Origin: a virus
Length of the DNA: 41,960 nucleotides
Direction: 5' to 3' (one strand)
Virus record (IMG/VR): IMGVR_UViG_3300043466_002940
Location: 1 to 41,960 of that record
Of the stretch, positions 5,793 to 41,822 are shown piece after piece. Under the pieces are notes generated by a model. It searched no databases, was not told the DNA's origin, and saw only the letters and a program-made list of their open reading frames with translations. Numbering within the stretch: the first letter of the stretch is position 1; each line of letters begins with the position of its first letter. Position numbers and translations under genes: made by a program.

Positions 5793-6125
5793 TCAGACTA
5801 GCTTGGCCTTGGGAGGGCGTCCAGGGCGCCGTTTAACGAAGGTTTGCTCGATGACCTTGGCGTGCTCCGGATTGGTCACGACAAGCGGCGTAACGGGCAG
5901 CGCAGGCGCCGCAACGGGGGCCTTGGCTTCCGGCTCGTCCACCACCTCGGCGAAGCGCAGCATGGCCGCGCTGATGATGAACTTCGTGATGCCGGCCTGG
6001 CGAATGTAGATGAGCCCGCCTTCGATGCTGGCCTTCCAGTCGTCGCGGGGCTCGACGAACTCGGAGTAGTGGACGCTCCAGGGGAGCTTGATGGGGTAGA
6101 GCAGGTGAAGAGTCTTCAGGTTCAT
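5793..6125 (-). CDS. uncharacterised protein with AT-hook-like C-terminus
   Basis: 110 aa; ATG in an ATGA overlap with the upstream zinc-protein stop. The first 70 residues look folded and mixed alpha/beta (LYPIKLPWSVHYSEFVEP, then IEGGLIYIRQAGITKF). An Ala/Pro linker leads to the basic tail KRRPGRPPKAK, which resembles an AT-hook core (PGRP between basic residues). DNA binding in the minor groove is an inference from that tail alone. Confidence 0.65.
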   Translation of the reverse strand: MNLKTLHLLYPIKLPWSVHYSEFVEPRDDWKASIEGGLIYIRQAGITKFIISAAMLRFAEVVDEPEAKAPVAAPALPVTPLVVTNPEHAKVIEQTFVKRRPGRPPKAKLV

Positions 6126-6499
6126 GGGTCTTTCACTCCGATGCCGCCGCAGGTGGAGCAGCGGCGGTTCTTGGCGTACAGGTTGGGTTCTCCTCGGATG
6201 GCCTCCGTGCCGCAGCGCGTGCAGCGCACGAGCCACTTGCGGTAGCCGTCCGCCTTCTCGACGACGACGTAGGTCCCGCACTCGATGCCTGGCGACCATC
6301 GCGCATGGCCTACGACACCGCGGCCACGGCCACGGCAGCCGCAGGAGCGGACGCCGTTCTGCACGATGTCGATGCGCTTCCACTTGCAGGTCTCCCCGCA
6401 GTCGCAGCGCTGCACCATGGGCGTCGTGCTCACGACGGTCAGCGCGCCGAACTTCGCGCCGACCTCGATGGCCTCATTCGTTACCGCTCGGCTTCGCAC
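6122..6499 (-). CDS. CDCG/SCGC zinc-binding phage protein, paralogue 1
   Basis: 125 aa from GTG 6499, chosen for the AAGGAGG just upstream; the longer TTG start at 6520 is poorly placed. It reads GAKFGALTVV, then CDCG, a spacer, NGVRSCGC, and a second Cys pair set (CTRCG ... CSTCGG) near the C-terminus, predicting two zinc sites. The same G-x3-LTV...CDCG...SCGC pattern recurs in 12593-13060 and 17962-18237. Related phage proteins often have an HNH nuclease following this domain; none is visible here. Function unknown. Confidence 0.7.
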   Translation of the reverse strand: MRSRAVTNEAIEVGAKFGALTVVSTTPMVQRCDCGETCKWKRIDIVQNGVRSCGCRGRGRGVVGHARWSPGIECGTYVVVEKADGYRKWLVRCTRCGTEAIRGEPNLYAKNRRCSTCGGIGVKDP

Positions 6500-6821
6500 C
6501 GACGCCTCCTTTTTCCACAAGGAAGAGCCAGTCCTCCCAGAACATGATGGCCATGGGCCGCTGCCGGTCGTAGCGGAGCACTGCCACCGGCACGTCGTCC
6601 TTCTTGCGCGCCGCGTCAGCCTGTTCGAGCGCAGCCTTTGGGGATAGGTTCTTCCCTGTCTTTACCTCAATCCACCAGCCGGGCAGCCCTACGACATCCG
6701 GGGCATCGGCCCCGTCGCGGGCCTGCCAGCCTCGGTGCGCATCCACACCGAATCGCTCGGCAATCTCCTTCGCGGTAGCGCGCTCGCCGCGCTTACCCTT
6801 CTCTCTCTGGGCCTTCCCCAT
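6474..6821 (-). CDS. PDDEXK nuclease, Holliday-junction-resolvase-like (Hjc/VRR-NUC type)
   Basis: 115 aa with AGGAGA upstream. The nuclease core is recognisable: Glu13 in KRGERATA, Asp42 in APDVVG, and Glu52-x-Lys54 in WIEVKTG, followed by an Ala-rich helix with Gln67 (LEQADAAR). These correspond to the metal-binding and catalytic residues of small archaeal-type resolvases and related phage enzymes. It overlaps its neighbours on both sides. Within the recombination operon it could resolve branched DNA before packaging. Confidence 0.75.
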   Translation of the reverse strand: MGKAQREKGKRGERATAKEIAERFGVDAHRGWQARDGADAPDVVGLPGWWIEVKTGKNLSPKAALEQADAARKKDDVPVAVLRYDRQRPMAIMFWEDWLFLVEKGGVGAKPSGNE

Positions 6822-7269
6822 CTTCTTCTCCTAGGTGCCAGTGATCTCTCATCTTGTACTCCGGGGGCAGTTCCCCGGCGTCTAGCTGGCCGCGGAGTTC
6901 AAGCTCAGGGAACACCTGAGCGATCTCGTAAGCCTCGTCGAGTGTCTGCGCGTCAGCCATCATGGGCCTGCGCGGCGTCGGCCCTTGGCGGTTACCTTTG
7001 AGCCGCTTGCACGCCTGCCGCCACTCGTGCGTCAGGTCGACAAGCCAGCGCGGGTACTCGCGCTTGTCCGCGCAGAGTGCGAGCAGGAGGGCCGGGACCG
7101 CTTCGTCATGCTCACGAAGGTAGTCCTCGACCTGCCCTGCTGTAACACGCTGCGGTCGCCCATACAGGTCGACACCGGTAACTTCGATAATGAGACGGCG
7201 AGCCTCGCCACCACGCATACCGCCGATGGCGGCTAGCTCGCTCGTCCCAAGGTACGACCATCGACTCAT
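6793..7269 (-). CDS. uncharacterised protein of the recombination operon
   Basis: 158 aa; ATG three bases after the upstream stop, no clear ribosome site, so probably coupled. The N-terminal 70 residues contain SELAAIGGMRGGEARRLI and VTAGQVEDYLREHDEAV, helices that could form a small DNA-binding fold. The C-terminus is acidic and hydrophilic (HLGEEDGEGPE). Its end overlaps the nuclease gene by 29 nt. No family is recognised. Confidence 0.65.
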   Translation of the reverse strand: MSRWSYLGTSELAAIGGMRGGEARRLIIEVTGVDLYGRPQRVTAGQVEDYLREHDEAVPALLLALCADKREYPRWLVDLTHEWRQACKRLKGNRQGPTPRRPMMADAQTLDEAYEIAQVFPELELRGQLDAGELPPEYKMRDHWHLGEEDGEGPEREG

Positions 7270-7272
7270 GGC

Positions 7273-7848
7273 TCAGAACGGGATACCGTCGTCGCTGCCG
7301 AAGTCGTCGTCACGCGGGTGCGAGTGGACCGTCGCCTTCACGGTGCCGCTCTTGAGGGCCTGCGCCCAACCCTTCGCGAGCGCGGCCTCGCGCAGTGAGT
7401 AGCCGGCCCACTTGACCTTCTCCGGGTCTTGAAGGTCCTTGCTGGCCTTCCACTCGCAGAAGCCTGCGTGCTGCTCCAGCCACTCCGGAGAAGTCTCCGA
7501 GTAGCGCCGACCGACCATCGACTCGCCCTTCCAGCGAGCAGGGTCGCGCTTGACCTCCGGGTCGCCGGTCCAGTCGCCACGCCCGCTGCCGCCCTGCTTC
7601 TGGATCTCGTGCAGCATGGCGATGCGGGCCTGCGGGAAGCCCCGCTCGTTGAAGCCTGCGAACCACGGGCGAGCGCCCTCCGGGATGAGCGTGTTCTGTG
7701 ACGGCATGGCCGGCGCGTAGGGGCTCTGCTGCGGCGCGGACGCCGTGCGCTTCACCTGCTGCTGAAGCTCGAACAGCTCCTTCTGCGTACGCGCGATGGC
7801 GTTCTCCAACAGAGAAACGCGCTGCTCAAGTGTCACTTCGTTTTCCAT
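7273..7848 (-). CDS. coiled-coil protein with SSB-type acidic C-terminal tip
   Basis: 191 aa. Residues 3-34 look like a coiled coil (EQRVSLLENAIART), followed by a Pro/Gln linker. A folded region at about 55-170 contains RWKGESMVGRRYSETSPEW. The C-terminus reads DDDFGSDDGIPF, matching the acidic tail ending in Ile/Leu-Pro-Phe that bacterial SSB uses to recruit repair and replication enzymes. I see no OB-fold pattern. It sits where SSB genes lie in RecT/exonuclease cassettes. It is either a divergent ssDNA-binding protein or a mimic that uses the SSB-tail docking site. It overlaps the nuclease gene by 16 nt. Confidence 0.65.
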   Translation of the reverse strand: MENEVTLEQRVSLLENAIARTQKELFELQQQVKRTASAPQQSPYAPAMPSQNTLIPEGARPWFAGFNERGFPQARIAMLHEIQKQGGSGRGDWTGDPEVKRDPARWKGESMVGRRYSETSPEWLEQHAGFCEWKASKDLQDPEKVKWAGYSLREAALAKGWAQALKSGTVKATVHSHPRDDDFGSDDGIPF

Positions 7849-8909
7849 GTGTCGTACCTCGTCTCCTTCATGAGTCCCATGTCACGGAGGTTGCCCTCCA
7901 GTACTTCGAGCGCCACCGCCTGCTTGGCGAGCTTCTTCTTTACGTCAGCCCAGGCGACCGTGGCCTTGATGCAGTCGCCCGCGCCTGCGTGCTCTACCAG
8001 CGAGAGCACGCGGTCGTCGTTCGAGAGCGTGACGCGCGTCGCCTCGACGCGGTAGTAATCGCCGCCGTCGCGTGTGCGGAAGCGTCCGCCGTTGACGCGG
8101 GCGAACGCCTTCATGTTCAGCTCGATCTTCCCGAGCATGTCGTTGGCGTAGGCAAGGAGCGCATGAGCGGCGGCAGCCTCGTCCTCGTTGTCGATCTTGG
8201 TAATGAGCTTCTGAAGATCAGGCACGTCCATGCCGCGCTCCACCGCCGCCGCGATGGCCGTGTTCTTCGGGCACTGAAGCGTAGCCGGGCACCACTGGCA
8301 CCACGGTCCAACGGTGGCCTTCAGGGCCTCCTCGCTGCGGTCGGAGAGGGCACCCATCATGCGCTGGTCGTGCATGTCGAGGTCTTCCGTGTGGAGCACC
8401 ATGCGGTCCTCCTCGCCGGTTGTGAGGTAGACGACGCGAACGTCGACCTTGCGCAGCGTCGGGTAGAGCGTGCGGAGCAGCCAGGCGTAGGTGCGCATCT
8501 GGTCCTCGTAGACGCCGTGGCGCTGGCCGGTCTTCCAGTCCACGAGCACGGCGTAGTCGAGGCCAGGGGATACGAGCGCCAGGTCGCAGGTGCCCTGGAT
8601 GGCGTCGGTCCCAGCCGGCGACTGGAAGACCATCGTGCGCTCGACGAGCTTGTGCCAGCCTTCGCCAGCCTCCTCGAAGAGCGATTCAGCGTAGGTGACG
8701 CCGCTCGCCGCCAACGCCACCTCGTCGTCGTCGCGTGCAGCGTCGCCCTCGGCGGGAGCGCCGAGCACACGGGCGATGGTCGTGTGGACGCGAGTGCCGC
8801 GGTCCGCAGCCGATGACGACTCCCCATCTGGCCACTCATGCCCGGCGAAGAAGGTGCAGTTGAGCCAGCGGGTCGTGGCGCTGGCGCGGAGGACGGGAAG
8901 CTTACGCAT
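7833..8909 (-). CDS. Cas4/RecB-family exonuclease with Fe-S cluster motif
   Basis: 358 aa. RecB-type nuclease motifs are visible: RGTRVH (Gly38, His42), QGTCDL (Asp109), VLVDWKTG (Asp124, Lys126) and a QMRTYAW helix (Gln137). Cysteines 204, 207 and 213 (CQWC then LQC), with Cys18 near the N-terminus, match the four-cysteine 4Fe-4S arrangement of Cas4 and AddB nucleases. Next to recT it should supply 3' single-stranded ends for annealing, as Red-alpha or RecE do. Its start overlaps the recT stop by 8 nt. Confidence 0.8.
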   Translation of the reverse strand: MRKLPVLRASATTRWLNCTFFAGHEWPDGESSSAADRGTRVHTTIARVLGAPAEGDAARDDDEVALAASGVTYAESLFEEAGEGWHKLVERTMVFQSPAGTDAIQGTCDLALVSPGLDYAVLVDWKTGQRHGVYEDQMRTYAWLLRTLYPTLRKVDVRVVYLTTGEEDRMVLHTEDLDMHDQRMMGALSDRSEEALKATVGPWCQWCPATLQCPKNTAIAAAVERGMDVPDLQKLITKIDNEDEAAAAHALLAYANDMLGKIELNMKAFARVNGGRFRTRDGGDYYRVEATRVTLSNDDRVLSLVEHAGAGDCIKATVAWADVKKKLAKQAVALEVLEGNLRDMGLMKETRYDTWKTK

Positions 8910-9732
8910 CGACCACCTCGCCCGTCACTTCGGGTGCAAGCTCCTGCGCCGCAGCCTTCACGGCCGCCTTTTGCGCATCGAAGAGCGCGCGCAGGTCCTT
9001 CTGCGCAGGACCCGTGATGCCGCGCTTCTTGATCTGCGCCGCGACGACCTTCAGTGCGTGCTCCGTCGTGCAGGCTTCGATGGCCTCACGCAGGCCCATG
9101 AGTTCGTCGTCGTCGATGTTCGACGCCTCAGGCTCAGGGGCGACGCCTACGGCCTCTTTAACGGCCTGCATGGCCTTGACCGACGCAGGGATGGACGTCG
9201 CCTGGATCGCCACAGGGACAGCCTCGTAGACGCCGCCGCGGGGCTGATCGAAGTCGGAGACCTCCTCCGGGGTGTAGACGCCGACGATGCAAGCCGGGTA
9301 GACGGTGCGGATGCCCTCGCTGATGACGCGAGCGCGGAGCATCTGGCGCGGGTACTTGAGCCAGTTGCCCTTGCCGCCGAGGCCGGCCTGCTTGGCGCGC
9401 TCCATATCCCACTCGATCGTGGCCGTGCCGCCGGCCTCGTGAGTGAACTCGCCGACGACCTTCGTGTCGGTGAGCGAGGCCCACCGCACCTTTCCGCCCG
9501 CGAGCTGGAAGCGGGCCAGCATGGCATCCGCCTTCATCGAGGGTCGCCCCTCGATGATATGATAGTCGCGCGCGGCGACCATGGGGTGCAACCCCTCGGC
9601 TTGCGCGAGGAGCATGAGCGCGAGCGCCTGGTCAGGCGTCTTCACGCCGAAGAGGTTCGACTTGGCGACGGCGGAGGCCATCTGGCCTACCTCCGCGATG
9701 GTGTGGTTCTGGGCTACGACGAGGTTCGACAT
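8902..9732 (-). CDS. recT: RecT-family single-strand annealing protein
   Basis: 276 aa with an AGGAG ribosome site. The conserved RecT core is clear: PDQALALMLLAQAEGLHP, then DYHIIEGRPSMKADAMLARF, WLKYPRQMLRARVISEG and YTPEEV. The C-terminal 90 residues are acidic and then helical, more variable in this family. RecT proteins coat single-stranded ends and anneal complementary strands. With the downstream Cas4-like exonuclease, the SSB-tail protein and the resolvase-like nuclease, it forms a complete phage recombination set. Confidence 0.85.
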   Translation of the reverse strand: MSNLVVAQNHTIAEVGQMASAVAKSNLFGVKTPDQALALMLLAQAEGLHPMVAARDYHIIEGRPSMKADAMLARFQLAGGKVRWASLTDTKVVGEFTHEAGGTATIEWDMERAKQAGLGGKGNWLKYPRQMLRARVISEGIRTVYPACIVGVYTPEEVSDFDQPRGGVYEAVPVAIQATSIPASVKAMQAVKEAVGVAPEPEASNIDDDELMGLREAIEACTTEHALKVVAAQIKKRGITGPAQKDLRALFDAQKAAVKAAAQELAPEVTGEVVDA

Positions 9733-12276: not shown

Positions 12277-12599
12277 AAGAGATCCCAACCAACCGCTGCC
12301 GTACAGCGCAGCTGGCCATCGACATGGACCTGTATGCCCAGTTCCCGAGCTACTCCGATGGGCGTAAGCTCGACTACTGGCAGTCTCACCCGGAGCACTG
12401 GTACTACAAGTGCCTGGAAGGCATCGTCTGCACGAACCTGGTCTGCCGGCCCATGACCATGTGCGAGGACTGCAACCGCCGCCAGTGGGCCTGGCAGAAG
12501 GAGTGGTCGGCGGAGCGGCGCCGGAAGGCGCTCGCGAAAAAGCTCGGCGAGAGTGAGGCCGGGATGCAGCAGGGCCGTAATGGAGGCCGGCAGTGGTGA
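12273..12599 (+). CDS. cysteine-rich protein following the replication gene
   Basis: 108 aa, ATGA overlap with the upstream stop and AGGAG at 12259-12263. Central cysteines CLEGIVCTNLVC and CEDC suggest one zinc site; a basic helix (SAERRRKALAKKLGESE) follows. It holds the position that a helicase loader has in lambdoid phages but is far too short and lacks a P-loop. Function unknown. Confidence 0.65.
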   Translation: MKEIPTNRCRTAQLAIDMDLYAQFPSYSDGRKLDYWQSHPEHWYYKCLEGIVCTNLVCRPMTMCEDCNRRQWAWQKEWSAERRRKALAKKLGESEAGMQQGRNGGRQW

Positions 12600-13060
12600 C
12601 CTGGCGAGACAGCCCCGACAGGGCGGACCAGTTCGACCGACTTGAAGTCGGCCGCAAGTATCACTTCCTCACCTGCGTGCAGGTGCGCCCCATCGTCCTC
12701 CGCTGCGACTGCGGGAAGGAGTTGCGCTACCGCAGCCTCTCGCACCTGAACAACGGGCTCAAGAGCTGCGGCTGCCAGTCGCAGCAGTCCAGGACTCCGC
12801 GGCTGCGTAATGAGGCCGACATGCAGGAGGCCGCACGCCTGCACCGCGTGCGCCTAATAGGCTGCATCACGAAGGACGTGAAGACCCGCTTCCGCCGCTA
12901 CGAGGTGGCCTGCCTCGACTGCGGCAAGGTGCACGAGCTGTCGCACGAGAGACTTGCAGACCCGACGCCGACCATCGGCGGCTGCCAGTCCTGCTCCGTC
13001 AGGGCGACCAAGGCAGCAAGGCGAGCCAGGTTCGAGGCTCGCGTAATGAGGCCTGCCTAA
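12593..13060 (+). CDS. CDCG/SCGC zinc-binding phage protein, paralogue 2
   Basis: 155 aa; tandem GTG codons at 12593 and 12596 after GGAGG, the second in a GTGA overlap. It reads VGRKYHFLTCV, CDCG, NNGLKSCGC, then after a linker ACLDCGK and CQSC, and a basic end (KAARRARFEARV). Layout matches 6122-6499 closely: two predicted zinc sites. It ends the rightward early unit just before the GC-alternating tract. Confidence 0.7.
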   Translation: MVTWRDSPDRADQFDRLEVGRKYHFLTCVQVRPIVLRCDCGKELRYRSLSHLNNGLKSCGCQSQQSRTPRLRNEADMQEAARLHRVRLIGCITKDVKTRFRRYEVACLDCGKVHELSHERLADPTPTIGGCQSCSVRATKAARRARFEARVMRPA

Positions 13061-13906: not shown

Positions 13907-14178
13907 TTGGCCGCCTCCCATTGTGCGGTAACGAAAAGCGCCGCCTCTTTTCGCGCCATGCCATGGGCGCGCGCCTCGCGTTCGGCGATGTCTCGCCAGC
14001 CTAGCAGCATTTCGCAAGCGGCAACCGCTCCGCGGTGAATTGGGCTCGCGGTGGGCGCGGCGTGCGTGATGCTTTCGGCGGTACACCCAGAGCGCCAGCA
14101 ATCGATCGCGCGTTCAAATCCGAAGCGGAAGAGGCCGGCCGTGCTCGTATCGGTGATATGGTAGCGCGCGGGATTCAT
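13903..14178 (-). CDS. 91-aa protein of the island operon
   Basis: Coupled to the clamp-like gene upstream by a four-base overlap. N-terminus MNPARYHITDTSTAGLFRFG, then two helices (AVAACEMLLGWRDIAERE, KEAALFVTAQW). Three cysteines. Function unknown; tight coupling suggests it works with the clamp-like protein. Confidence 0.6.
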   Translation of the reverse strand: MNPARYHITDTSTAGLFRFGFERAIDCWRSGCTAESITHAAPTASPIHRGAVAACEMLLGWRDIAEREARAHGMARKEAALFVTAQWEAAK

Positions 14179-14822
14179 TCGGCAGCCTCGCTTTCGAGCA
14201 CGCGGATTTCGTAGCCTGTCATGACTTCTGCCGCGATCCCATCTGCGTTGGTCATGTCGACGCGTACAGGCATGACGACGCTAAGCATGGTCACGTTATC
14301 GCGCGTGCGTGAGCATAGGCGCACCGGGGTACCGGGATCGCCTACCTCAACGGCCGTCGAAACGATGCGCTCCTTCCCAAAAATCGCGGCGTGCATTTTC
14401 ATGTGTGCGAGCATGAGGTTAGGGTCAAACCAGCCGCATTCGTAGCGCTTGACTTGCGCGGGAACGACGCGCTCAAGCTCAGGGAAGCTCACTCCGTCCG
14501 TTCGCGGCGATACGCGGACTGGTACGGCCCCATGCTCAATCGACGCAAAGAACGCGAGCACATCCCCCGGTTCGAACGCGACATACCCCTTGGTCCCGGC
14601 ATACTTGCAGCCGGTGCGGATGTCAGCCGCGCGGTAGACCGCTGCGCCGTTCGTCTCGGGGTCGACGCGAGGGACGCGCGCAATAACGGCCGTTGCGCCG
14701 TTCGTTGCAGCAAAGGTAACGGACACGCCGCGGCGATGGTTCACGCGGACGCTTGACGTCGACATGCGCGAATCATCGGCGACAGAGGCAACGGATGCGA
14801 GGATTTTGACGGTATCGTACAT
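14175..14822 (-). CDS. sliding-clamp-like (DnaN-type) protein, shortened
   Basis: 215 aa from ATG 14822 (AGGA upstream). Clamp-like landmarks appear in order: an N-terminal helix (VKILASVASVADD), VTFAATNGATAVIARVP (compare the ATDGHRLA strand of beta clamps), SFPELERVVPAQ (compare FPDYxRVIP), FDPNLMLAHMKMH, and VVMPVRVD (compare the terminal MPMRL). Bacterial beta clamps are about 370 aa in three domains; this has room for two. No polymerase gene is visible, so it may replace or compete with the host clamp. Assignment is by motif recognition only. Confidence 0.55.
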   Translation of the reverse strand: MYDTVKILASVASVADDSRMSTSSVRVNHRRGVSVTFAATNGATAVIARVPRVDPETNGAAVYRAADIRTGCKYAGTKGYVAFEPGDVLAFFASIEHGAVPVRVSPRTDGVSFPELERVVPAQVKRYECGWFDPNLMLAHMKMHAAIFGKERIVSTAVEVGDPGTPVRLCSRTRDNVTMLSVVMPVRVDMTNADGIAAEVMTGYEIRVLESEAAE

Positions 14823-14878
14823 GATGGTCCTATCAGTAACCGCGCACAATCGCGCGGGTCACGGCTTGCGCCGCTATC

Positions 14879-17579: not shown

Positions 17580-17962
17580 AGCTCGAAGACCTTGGCCGCC
17601 GAGCTGTGGCGTGCAAACACTGGCGCTGGATGGATGGGATGACGGTACACGGACTCCCGACCTACCGCGTTGTATCGAACAACTGTGACGGTCATACATA
17701 CCGGACCGATGGATATGACTCGGATAGCTTGAGGGACTGCGTTCCCGACCTCTCCGACCCCGCGACGCTCGGCTGCCTGCTCGCGCTGGTGCGTAAAGCG
17801 TGGGGACGTCCGTTCTGGGTGGAAGGCGACCCTCGCTCGATGGGCGAACGCCCCGATGAATGGATCGGCGTGCTGTTCGAGGGGCGCTTCGCAACGTGCC
17901 CAATCGTCCATGCCTCTACCGAGGCCGAGGCCCTCGTCGCCGCGCTGGAGGCTGCACCCTGA
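17576..17962 (+). CDS. small phage protein, ABA-sandwich-like
   Basis: 128 aa, coupled on both sides. It begins KLEDLGRRAVACKHWRWM, with LSDPATLGCLLALVRKAWG in the middle and ASTEAEALVAALEAAP at the end. The order (RAVACK-W-RWM, PDLxDPATLG, EAEALVAALEA) is common in early regions of unrelated phages and resembles phage ABA-sandwich proteins. Function unknown. Confidence 0.6.
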   Translation: MKLEDLGRRAVACKHWRWMDGMTVHGLPTYRVVSNNCDGHTYRTDGYDSDSLRDCVPDLSDPATLGCLLALVRKAWGRPFWVEGDPRSMGERPDEWIGVLFEGRFATCPIVHASTEAEALVAALEAAP

Positions 17963-18237
17963 TGGCTGTCGCGGTGGACGAGACGGGCAAGCGCTACGGC
18001 CGGCTGACGGTCTTGGAGCGCTCGCATGTGCGGGACTACCGCAGGGCCGCTACCTGGCTCTGTGCGTGCGACTGCGGGGGCTACAAGAGCGTCGCCGGGG
18101 TTACCCTGCGGCAGGGGCTGGTGACGAGCTGTGGCTGCCTTCTAGAGGCGAAGAAGAGGGTCGTATGCGGCTGCGGGTATGTAGGCCCGCGGGGCAAGAT
18201 GGACTGGCAGTGTCTTAGATGCAGGAGGAAGGGATGA
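17962..18237 (+). CDS. CDCG/SCGC zinc-binding phage protein, paralogue 3
   Basis: 91 aa, TGATG overlap. TGKRYGRLTVLERS, WLCACDCG, LVTSCGC, then CGCGYVG and CLRC: the same core as 6122-6499 and 12593-13060 with a shorter second zinc site. No HNH nuclease follows. This copy is closest to the widespread GxxYGRLTV form of the family. Confidence 0.75.
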   Translation: MAVAVDETGKRYGRLTVLERSHVRDYRRAATWLCACDCGGYKSVAGVTLRQGLVTSCGCLLEAKKRVVCGCGYVGPRGKMDWQCLRCRRKG

Positions 18238-40367: not shown

Positions 40368-41450
40368 ATGAGCGCACCAGCTATCATCTCCTCTGGTACC
40401 GCAGCCGGTGGGCCTCCCGTTGGCGGCGGTGGAACTTCCTCGCCCTCGACGATCCCCCGCTGGACCGGGCCGAGCACGTTGGGGGATTCGGGGCTTATCG
40501 ACAACGGCACCGCGATCTACACGACGACGCGCAACGTCGGCTTCGGCACGGCGACTCCGGGCGCTATCCTGCACACGCTCGGCACCGGTACGACTACTGG
40601 CATCTTTGCCACGACGAGCGCAAACGCATGGGTAGAGCTTCGTCGCTCGACTAGCACGACGCTCGGCTACATCGGCACGGGCGCGGGCCTCGTGACCGGT
40701 GGGGCGGCAGCGGATCTTGCGTTCCGATGCGAAAGCGGCAACCTGCTCTTCTCGACGGGTGCCACCGAACGCGCCCGCATCGACTCGTTGGGGCGCTGGT
40801 ACGTCGGCGTCGCTGCGGTATCGCCAGGGAGCAGTGGAATCTGGGCCATCATCAATCAACCTGGCGGCGCAGGTGGACAGGAGTGGCACAATTCTACCGG
40901 GAGCCAAGGCGGCACAGCGGTCGTGCCAAGCCAGGATCGGGCTACGTGGTATGTGTATTCTGGGTCGGTCGGGTCAGAAATTTATAAGCAATCGTGTGCG
41001 TTCACGCCGACCGGCATCGACCTGACCGGCGCATGGGCGACCCCCGGAATCAAACTCCCCAATGCGCCGGGCAACACCGACCCGAACACGCTGGACTCTT
41101 ACCGCGAGGGGACGCGCGTACTCGCGGCTGGCGATCTCTCCGGCTGGACCTACGTTACGGCGACGCAATACTGGACGCTCGTAGGCCGCACGGTCACGCT
41201 TCACACCATCTTCACGGGTGGCACGTCGAGCGCGACCGGTGGCGCGACCATCGCGACCCCGCCACTTCTCACGCCGCTCCGCATCGCTGCGGGCGCTGCG
41301 GTCAACAGTGCAGGCACCGCGCTTGGCAACGGCGTGTGCGTCGTCGCTTCGACCAGCTCCACGACGGGCACCGTCACAACGTCGAGCGCGATTTCGTCCA
41401 GCGCCTTGGACAAGGTTATCACCGTCACCTACGAGACCGCAGGTCTCTGA
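40368..41450 (+). CDS. tail fibre protein, cassette B
   Basis: 360 aa, GAGAGGAGAG upstream. Begins MSAPAIISSGTAAGG, then TIPRWTGPSTLGDSGL (compare cassette A TIALWTPDGNTLGNSLL). One complete shaft module (GFGTATPGAILHT to ERARIDS) is nearly identical to cassette A. After the hinge GIKLPNAPGNTDPNTLDSY the C-terminal 130 residues are unrelated to cassette A (SGWTYVTATQYWTLVGRTV). It has roughly half the shaft length of A and a different tip, so probably a different receptor. Confidence 0.85.
   Translation: MSAPAIISSGTAAGGPPVGGGGTSSPSTIPRWTGPSTLGDSGLIDNGTAIYTTTRNVGFGTATPGAILHTLGTGTTTGIFATTSANAWVELRRSTSTTLGYIGTGAGLVTGGAAADLAFRCESGNLLFSTGATERARIDSLGRWYVGVAAVSPGSSGIWAIINQPGGAGGQEWHNSTGSQGGTAVVPSQDRATWYVYSGSVGSEIYKQSCAFTPTGIDLTGAWATPGIKLPNAPGNTDPNTLDSYREGTRVLAAGDLSGWTYVTATQYWTLVGRTVTLHTIFTGGTSSATGGATIATPPLLTPLRIAAGAAVNSAGTALGNGVCVVASTSSTTGTVTTSSAISSSALDKVITVTYETAGL
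40533..40787 (+). repeat. 255-bp fibre-shaft repeat, copy 2
   Basis: Partner of 1615-1869, about six single-base differences by eye. Flanking sequence is not conserved. Confidence 0.9.
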
Positions 41451-41459
41451 AAGCCTACC

Positions 41460-41822
41460 ATGCACGCTACCATTCAACCCGTTCCCGCATTTCCGAAGCC
41501 CGCCGTGGCTTTGTTCATCAACAACGTCACCGTGTGGCCGTCGAGCGAGGCGCAATTTGGCTGGACCCTTCGCGACGCTGACGGCGCGCAAGTGGGTTTC
41601 GGCATCCTCACGCTCTCCGGCGACGCCTACGCCGCGTGGGGCACGGACGACGACTACCTGTACACCTACACCGCCGCGCAGCTCGGCCTGACCATCGTCG
41701 AGATCGTGCCCGACGCGCCGCCCGCACCGCCCGAGCCTGCGCCCGTCGAGGAGCCTGCTCCGGTGGTTGACGACACTGCCGCTCCCGTGGCACCTTCCGT
41801 GGACACCCAGGAGGAATCGTGA
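41460..41822 (+). CDS. small fibre-associated protein, cassette B
   Basis: 120 aa. N-terminal 53 residues (FPKPAVALFINNVTVWPSSE) differ from the cassette A paralogue. The rest, from GDAYAAWGTDDDYLY, is the same apart from the missing PTPE. Followed by AGGAGG and the GTGA overlap exactly as in cassette A. Confidence 0.75.
   Translation: MHATIQPVPAFPKPAVALFINNVTVWPSSEAQFGWTLRDADGAQVGFGILTLSGDAYAAWGTDDDYLYTYTAAQLGLTIVEIVPDAPPAPPEPAPVEEPAPVVDDTAAPVAPSVDTQEES

Follow-up and report, generated by a model that had tools for sequence, protein, structure and literature searches.

A viral protein with an SSB-like C-terminal tail and a predicted non-OB body, encoded beside RecT and an exonuclease

What function does a protein perform that ends like a single-stranded DNA-binding protein (SSB) and is encoded where phages often carry an SSB, if the rest of it does not resemble one? 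This question is raised by one gene in the window (the whole stretch of viral DNA analysed here, 41,960 nucleotides, IMG/VR record IMGVR_UViG_3300043466_002940). The reading frame that a preliminary description had placed at 7273-7848 is present at exactly these positions, on the minus strand, which had not been specified; its product, here called X, has 191 amino acids and is supported by homologues in eight other viral contigs. The C-terminus of X reads HPRDDDFGSDDGIPF, directly followed by the stop codon. Its tail DDDFGSDDGIPF (residues 180-191; 7276-7311, minus strand) is predicted to be disordered and resembles the C-terminal peptide of SSB (SSB-Ct), so that X shares with bacterial SSB an acidic, disordered C-terminal stretch that closes with (I/L)PF.

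X comes third in a RecT-exonuclease-X cassette whose reading frames overlap. Directly upstream on the same strand lie a DUF2800-like PD-(D/E)XK exonuclease (7833-8909, minus strand; PDDEXK_1 E=4.5e-12, DUF2800 E=1.9e-8, PHROG exonuclease E=4e-21) and a RecT-like single-strand annealing protein (SSAP; 8902-9732, minus strand; PF03837 E=1.4e-7, PHROG RecT E=2.4e-30). These Pfam and PHROG profile matches confirm the neighbours that had been named for X in the preliminary description, which had placed X in the SSB position. The exonuclease gene and the start of X share 16 nt, and the overlap has the identical length in all five RecT loci. The order RecT-exonuclease-X is common to the window and to contigs L001, L015, L033 and L036, and in each of them X adjoins the SSAP and exonuclease genes, the setting by which a partner with an SSB tail of the HK620 type is recognized. 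The next gene of the operon, a conserved neighbour to which no function is assigned (6793-7269, minus strand), keeps the same order in L001, L015, L033 and L036. It is followed by a nuclease of PHROG family 244 (6474-6821, minus strand), which is labelled as RusA-like resolvase and has a weak match to PDDEXK_15.

Several other genes of the record can be mentioned here. A 224-aa protein (14175-14849, minus strand) is sliding-clamp-like by eye, and its sole match is PHROG 3007, labelled RusA-like (E=2.6e-5). Three small cysteine-rich proteins (6122-6520, minus strand; 12593-13060 and 17860-18237, plus strand) show weak to clear similarity to PHROG HNH endonucleases (374, 681). Both ends of the record carry tail-fibre-like genes (502-2920 and 40368-41822) that look like related pairs, and the reading frames 2546-2920 and 41460-41822 have the common C-terminus PAPVVDDTAAPVAPSVDTQEES.

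An ordinary SSB was rejected as the identity of X, given the absence of a profile match and of an OB fold in the structural model. Pfam and PHROG scans of X gave no SSB match, the OB-fold profile of bacterial SSB included, and X had no match among Pfam, PHROG and PDB sequence families. The cores of X and of its distant relative from contig L003 likewise had no match in Pfam, where an ExoX C-terminal-like (GKxKG) domain was considered, to which a remote similarity may still exist. The AlphaFold2 model, a prediction built from eight sequences and not a solved structure, consists of a coiled-coil helix (residues 7-35; 7744-7830, minus strand; pLDDT about 61-77), a disordered linker (35-52), a conserved domain (57-167; 7348-7680, minus strand), which is also delimited by the alignments, and a disordered end (174-191). 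In the N-terminal helix hydrophobic residues occupy seven of the ten heptad core positions, and its weak matches are to coiled-coil families only. The C-terminal part of the domain is a helical hairpin (121-140/145-167); apart from these helices and helix 7-35 the model contains only two short strands. The pLDDT reaches 86-94 over residues 101-170 and 63-90 over 57-100 and falls below 50 over 174-191. A beta barrel of the OB type was sought in the model and was not found; therefore the prediction supports a non-OB body. A coiled coil plus an unfamiliar fold had been proposed from the sequence, together with structure prediction of residues 55-170, and the model agrees in giving a mostly helical domain, for which Foldseek retrieves nothing with E<3 from the PDB.

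The only Foldseek match of X is one viral model, A0A6J5MP36 (BFVD, E=7.1e-7), and none of the fold matches is to an ssDNA-binding protein. Kinship with 2yxy was considered and rejected, as the best match at a second look (Z 4.7, 51 residues, rmsd 1.4, 31% identity) covers only the hairpin, regarded as a common one. Candidate homologues among solved structures found by sequence were also discarded, being chance matches of the coiled coil and weak unrelated ones.

Could the domain nevertheless bind ssDNA? In that case X would be a genuine ssDNA-binding protein with a novel fold other than OB, taking the place of SSB on the ssDNA of the phage and ending in the usual tail. X sits where recombination modules of phages have their SSB, the order SSAP-ssb being common in phage genomes (PMC8093625), and the tail is present. 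The profile PF00436 has no match in the window record or in the eight related contigs, which are fragments or of unknown completeness, so that an SSB may lie elsewhere in the phage genomes, and the Enc34-type profile PF10991 has none in the window, a weaker check than that with PF00436 given that only one control genome was matched. The alignments of the domain show the motifs GDWxGDP, WKGES..G and LAKGWA, and the aromatic residues W62, W93, W106, W161 and Y150, invariant among the RecT-linked members, would suit such a role. However, the net charge of the domain is only +1 to +4, and strong DNA binding is therefore not indicated for this nearly neutral domain; it consists mostly of a helical hairpin, and the fold searches brought up no ssDNA-binding protein. 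Hence we regard a new-fold SSB as improbable. A broader version of this idea makes X the first representative of a new phage class of non-OB proteins that bind ssDNA or handle its ends. The SSB tail would here have been grafted onto a coiled-coil/helical-hairpin scaffold that replaces SSB in the RecT-exonuclease machine; this version is somewhat less improbable but still doubtful.

Five distinct RecT-linked homologues can be compared, namely those of the window, L001/L002 (87% identity to X of the window), L015 (45%), L033 (46%) and L036 (48%), and their tails are DDDFGSDDGIPF, DDDDFASDDGIPF, DRDFDDANEDFPF, GWNDANEEIPF and FDDNFPSDDIPF. All five are acidic and end in IPF or FPF (IPF, IPF, FPF, IPF and IPF in the five lineages). 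The 14 residues of linker before the tail, on the other hand, have diverged to 14% identity between the window and L015, 7% between the window and L036, and 18% between L036 and L015. The C-terminus had been described as a copy of the SSB tip, and the comparison upholds this: it is a conserved SSB-Ct-like peptide, kept at about 45% overall identity next to a linker with 7-18%. Three of the four codon changes between the tails of the window and L001 are synonymous.

An acidic end may also arise by chance or serve as a generic tail with no SSB-type docking role, and the existence of tailless homologues indicates that X can do without it. Against this, a hydrophobic-Pro-Phe end preceded by at least four acidic residues in nine positions is expected in about 2.5e-6 per ORF by a composition model, and the tail is kept in five lineages despite the diverged linker. 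We consider a meaningless tail very improbable, and a functional role of the tail is well supported. The hydrophobic-Pro-Phe end occurs in seven of the 849 distinct ORFs of at least 80 aa in the fetched DNA, and all seven encode RecT-module proteins; the loci were chosen for their RecT modules, therefore this figure is an enrichment within the sample and not an unbiased rate. Besides the five members of the X family, the seven comprise two other proteins. In phage ctz7E20 (MW202753.1; L049:5807-6055) an 82-aa gene after RecT, whose product matches a PHROG single-strand DNA-binding protein (E=1.8e-8), ends in PPPDAGDVPF. In a Salinibacter phage the RecT-like protein itself (L052:2920-3933; OR896277.1 32417-33430) ends in FEDADGELPF, an SSB-like tail on an annealing protein. 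A second Salinibacter record (L060) has the identical tail, but the record is 98.5% identical and therefore not an independent case. The sampled RecT modules of actinobacterial phages and of Verrucomicrobia phage P8625 contained no such tail.

Relatives of X were found only in IMG/VR contigs; searches of phages in GenBank, of plasmids and of bacterial genomes (one per species) detected none, although the two genome scans relied on patterns shaped mainly by the coiled coil or by two of the lineages and could have missed some. The most distant branch (L003, L004 and L005; 28% identity to X of the window) has a different setting: an Erf-family annealing protein (in L003 PF04404, E=4.8e-13) is followed by an exonuclease and then by an X of 129 aa. 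These proteins retain the domain and end in DPAW, without the SSB-like tail, and therefore the tail is not essential to the X family. Since the Erf-linked branch lacks it, the tail goes with RecT within the family, as observed in a small sample.

Taken together, X is likely a recruiting accessory. In its full form, this explanation, to which we give about an even chance, holds that X is a non-OB accessory of the phage exonuclease/annealing module that presents an SSB-Ct-like peptide, with RecT as its likeliest partner. The coiled coil would make X an oligomer, the helical domain would associate with the exonuclease or with the ssDNA that the exonuclease leaves, and the disordered C-termini would display copies of the SSB-tip peptide and dock a partner that has an SSB-tip pocket. 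Most probably this would be RecT of the phage, docking with its C-terminal helical domain, and X could thus load RecT onto newly made 3' overhangs with no need for a phage SSB; host proteins that bind the SSB tip might be recruited as well. Read most simply, X would occupy the slot of the tail-bearing partner, but not as an OB-fold SSB.

Three kinds of observation argue for this accessory. First, the tail is kept in the five RecT-linked homologues while the linker diverges, and the 16-nt overlap is constant; second, similar tails are found in other RecT-module proteins (DAGDVPF in ctz7E20, DADGELPF in the Salinibacter RecT); third, no PF00436 or PF10991 match is present in the window, and the model predicts the order helix, disordered linker, domain and disordered tail. 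Precedents point by analogy in the same direction. The SSB of phage HK620 ends in NDYPPF, and both the binding of Sak4 to SSB-coated ssDNA and the stimulation of annealing require its last six residues (PMC5928155). RecT proteins recognize the SSB C-terminus over about seven residues, and this recognition sets the host range of RecT (PMC10711431); Red-beta uses residues 178-261 to bind lambda exonuclease and potentially also SSB (PMC9512822). The accessory is weakened by the Erf-linked homologues, in which the domain persists but the tail is missing, and by the near-neutral charge of the domain, which gives no sign of strong DNA binding.

A different use of the same parts is a decoy, in which X titrates host repair proteins off host SSB and thereby protects phage ends. 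A tail without an OB fold could compete for such proteins, and the coiled coil would raise its avidity. However, X is no early gene standing on its own but is tied to the exonuclease by overlapping frames, the tailless branch conserves the domain, and phages commonly put real SSB partners at the position of X (PMC8093625), which makes the decoy quite improbable. The accessory is favoured over it because the order RecT-exonuclease-X is fixed with frames overlapping, because X is kept with an Erf-type annealing protein where the tail is absent, and because annealing proteins depend on SSB C-termini (PMC5928155; PMC10711431).

The identity of the docked partner is a less certain part of the accessory model. 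The C-terminal domain of RecT (8905-9138, minus strand), for which AlphaFold2 predicts three helices with pLDDT 91-95, is a candidate docking site for the tail of X. Against RecT as the receptor, the fold search with this model gave no significant match. A Red-beta-CTD-like end of RecT was considered and set aside: a three-helix bundle is predicted, but the Red-beta CTD and lambda Orf are absent among the matches listed. The region weakly resembles T4 UvsW.1 (2jpn; sequence E=1.5, fold Z 6.2), a likeness that is no evidence, because helical domains of EXOG and PheRS match likewise. The Salinibacter RecT bears its own tail, and therefore the receptor may be a third protein. This would be easier to understand if X recruited host enzymes that bind the SSB tip (e.g. 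PriA, RecO, RecG, ExoI or pol III chi), bringing them to the recombination intermediates of the phage and thereby letting recombination feed host-driven replication; the tails, close to the bacterial consensus (DDGIPF, DDIPF, NEEIPF), fit such receptors. The strict linkage of X to exonuclease and RecT also fits a phage receptor, and we consider a host receptor in place of RecT unlikely, albeit a possibility to be taken seriously.

The phage seems to show the recruiting tag of SSB on a different scaffold. RecT-type annealing proteins read the C-terminus of SSB, and this makes them host-restricted. If the accessory model is correct, a phage module with the SSB tip on a scaffold of its own would be a portable loader and a direct test of the need for the tip; recombineering could possibly become less host-dependent, and the SSB tip would be a transferable peptide, independent of the OB fold.

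Literature searches, in which subscription papers were mostly outside coverage, returned no account of a phage protein that carries an SSB tail but lacks the OB fold. Like bacterial SSB (PF00436), X has a disordered linker and an acidic tail ending in IPF; unlike it, X is composed of coiled coil, helical domain and tail, with no OB fold and no sequence match. The closest likeness of the body is to A0A6J5MP36, an uncharacterised 136-aa protein of an uncultured Caudovirales phage, which has a similar predicted fold and 28% identity over 122 columns. The phage SSBs of the T7 gp2.5 and Enc34-type (PF10991) families are OB-fold proteins, and X has no sequence match to them. A DUF2800-type exonuclease as neighbour is nevertheless shared between the T7 gp2.5 modules and the X cassette (PMC8093625). 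The HK620 SSB is a proven ssDNA-binding protein and a distant homologue of other phage SSBs (PMC5928155), whereas X has no detectable relation to SSB families and no OB fold in its model, and the partner is Sak4 (DUF669) in the one case and, putatively, RecT with a PD-(D/E)XK exonuclease in the other. What X and the HK620 SSB have in common is that each is a phage-encoded neighbour of an SSAP with a C-terminus like the SSB tip (PMC5928155).
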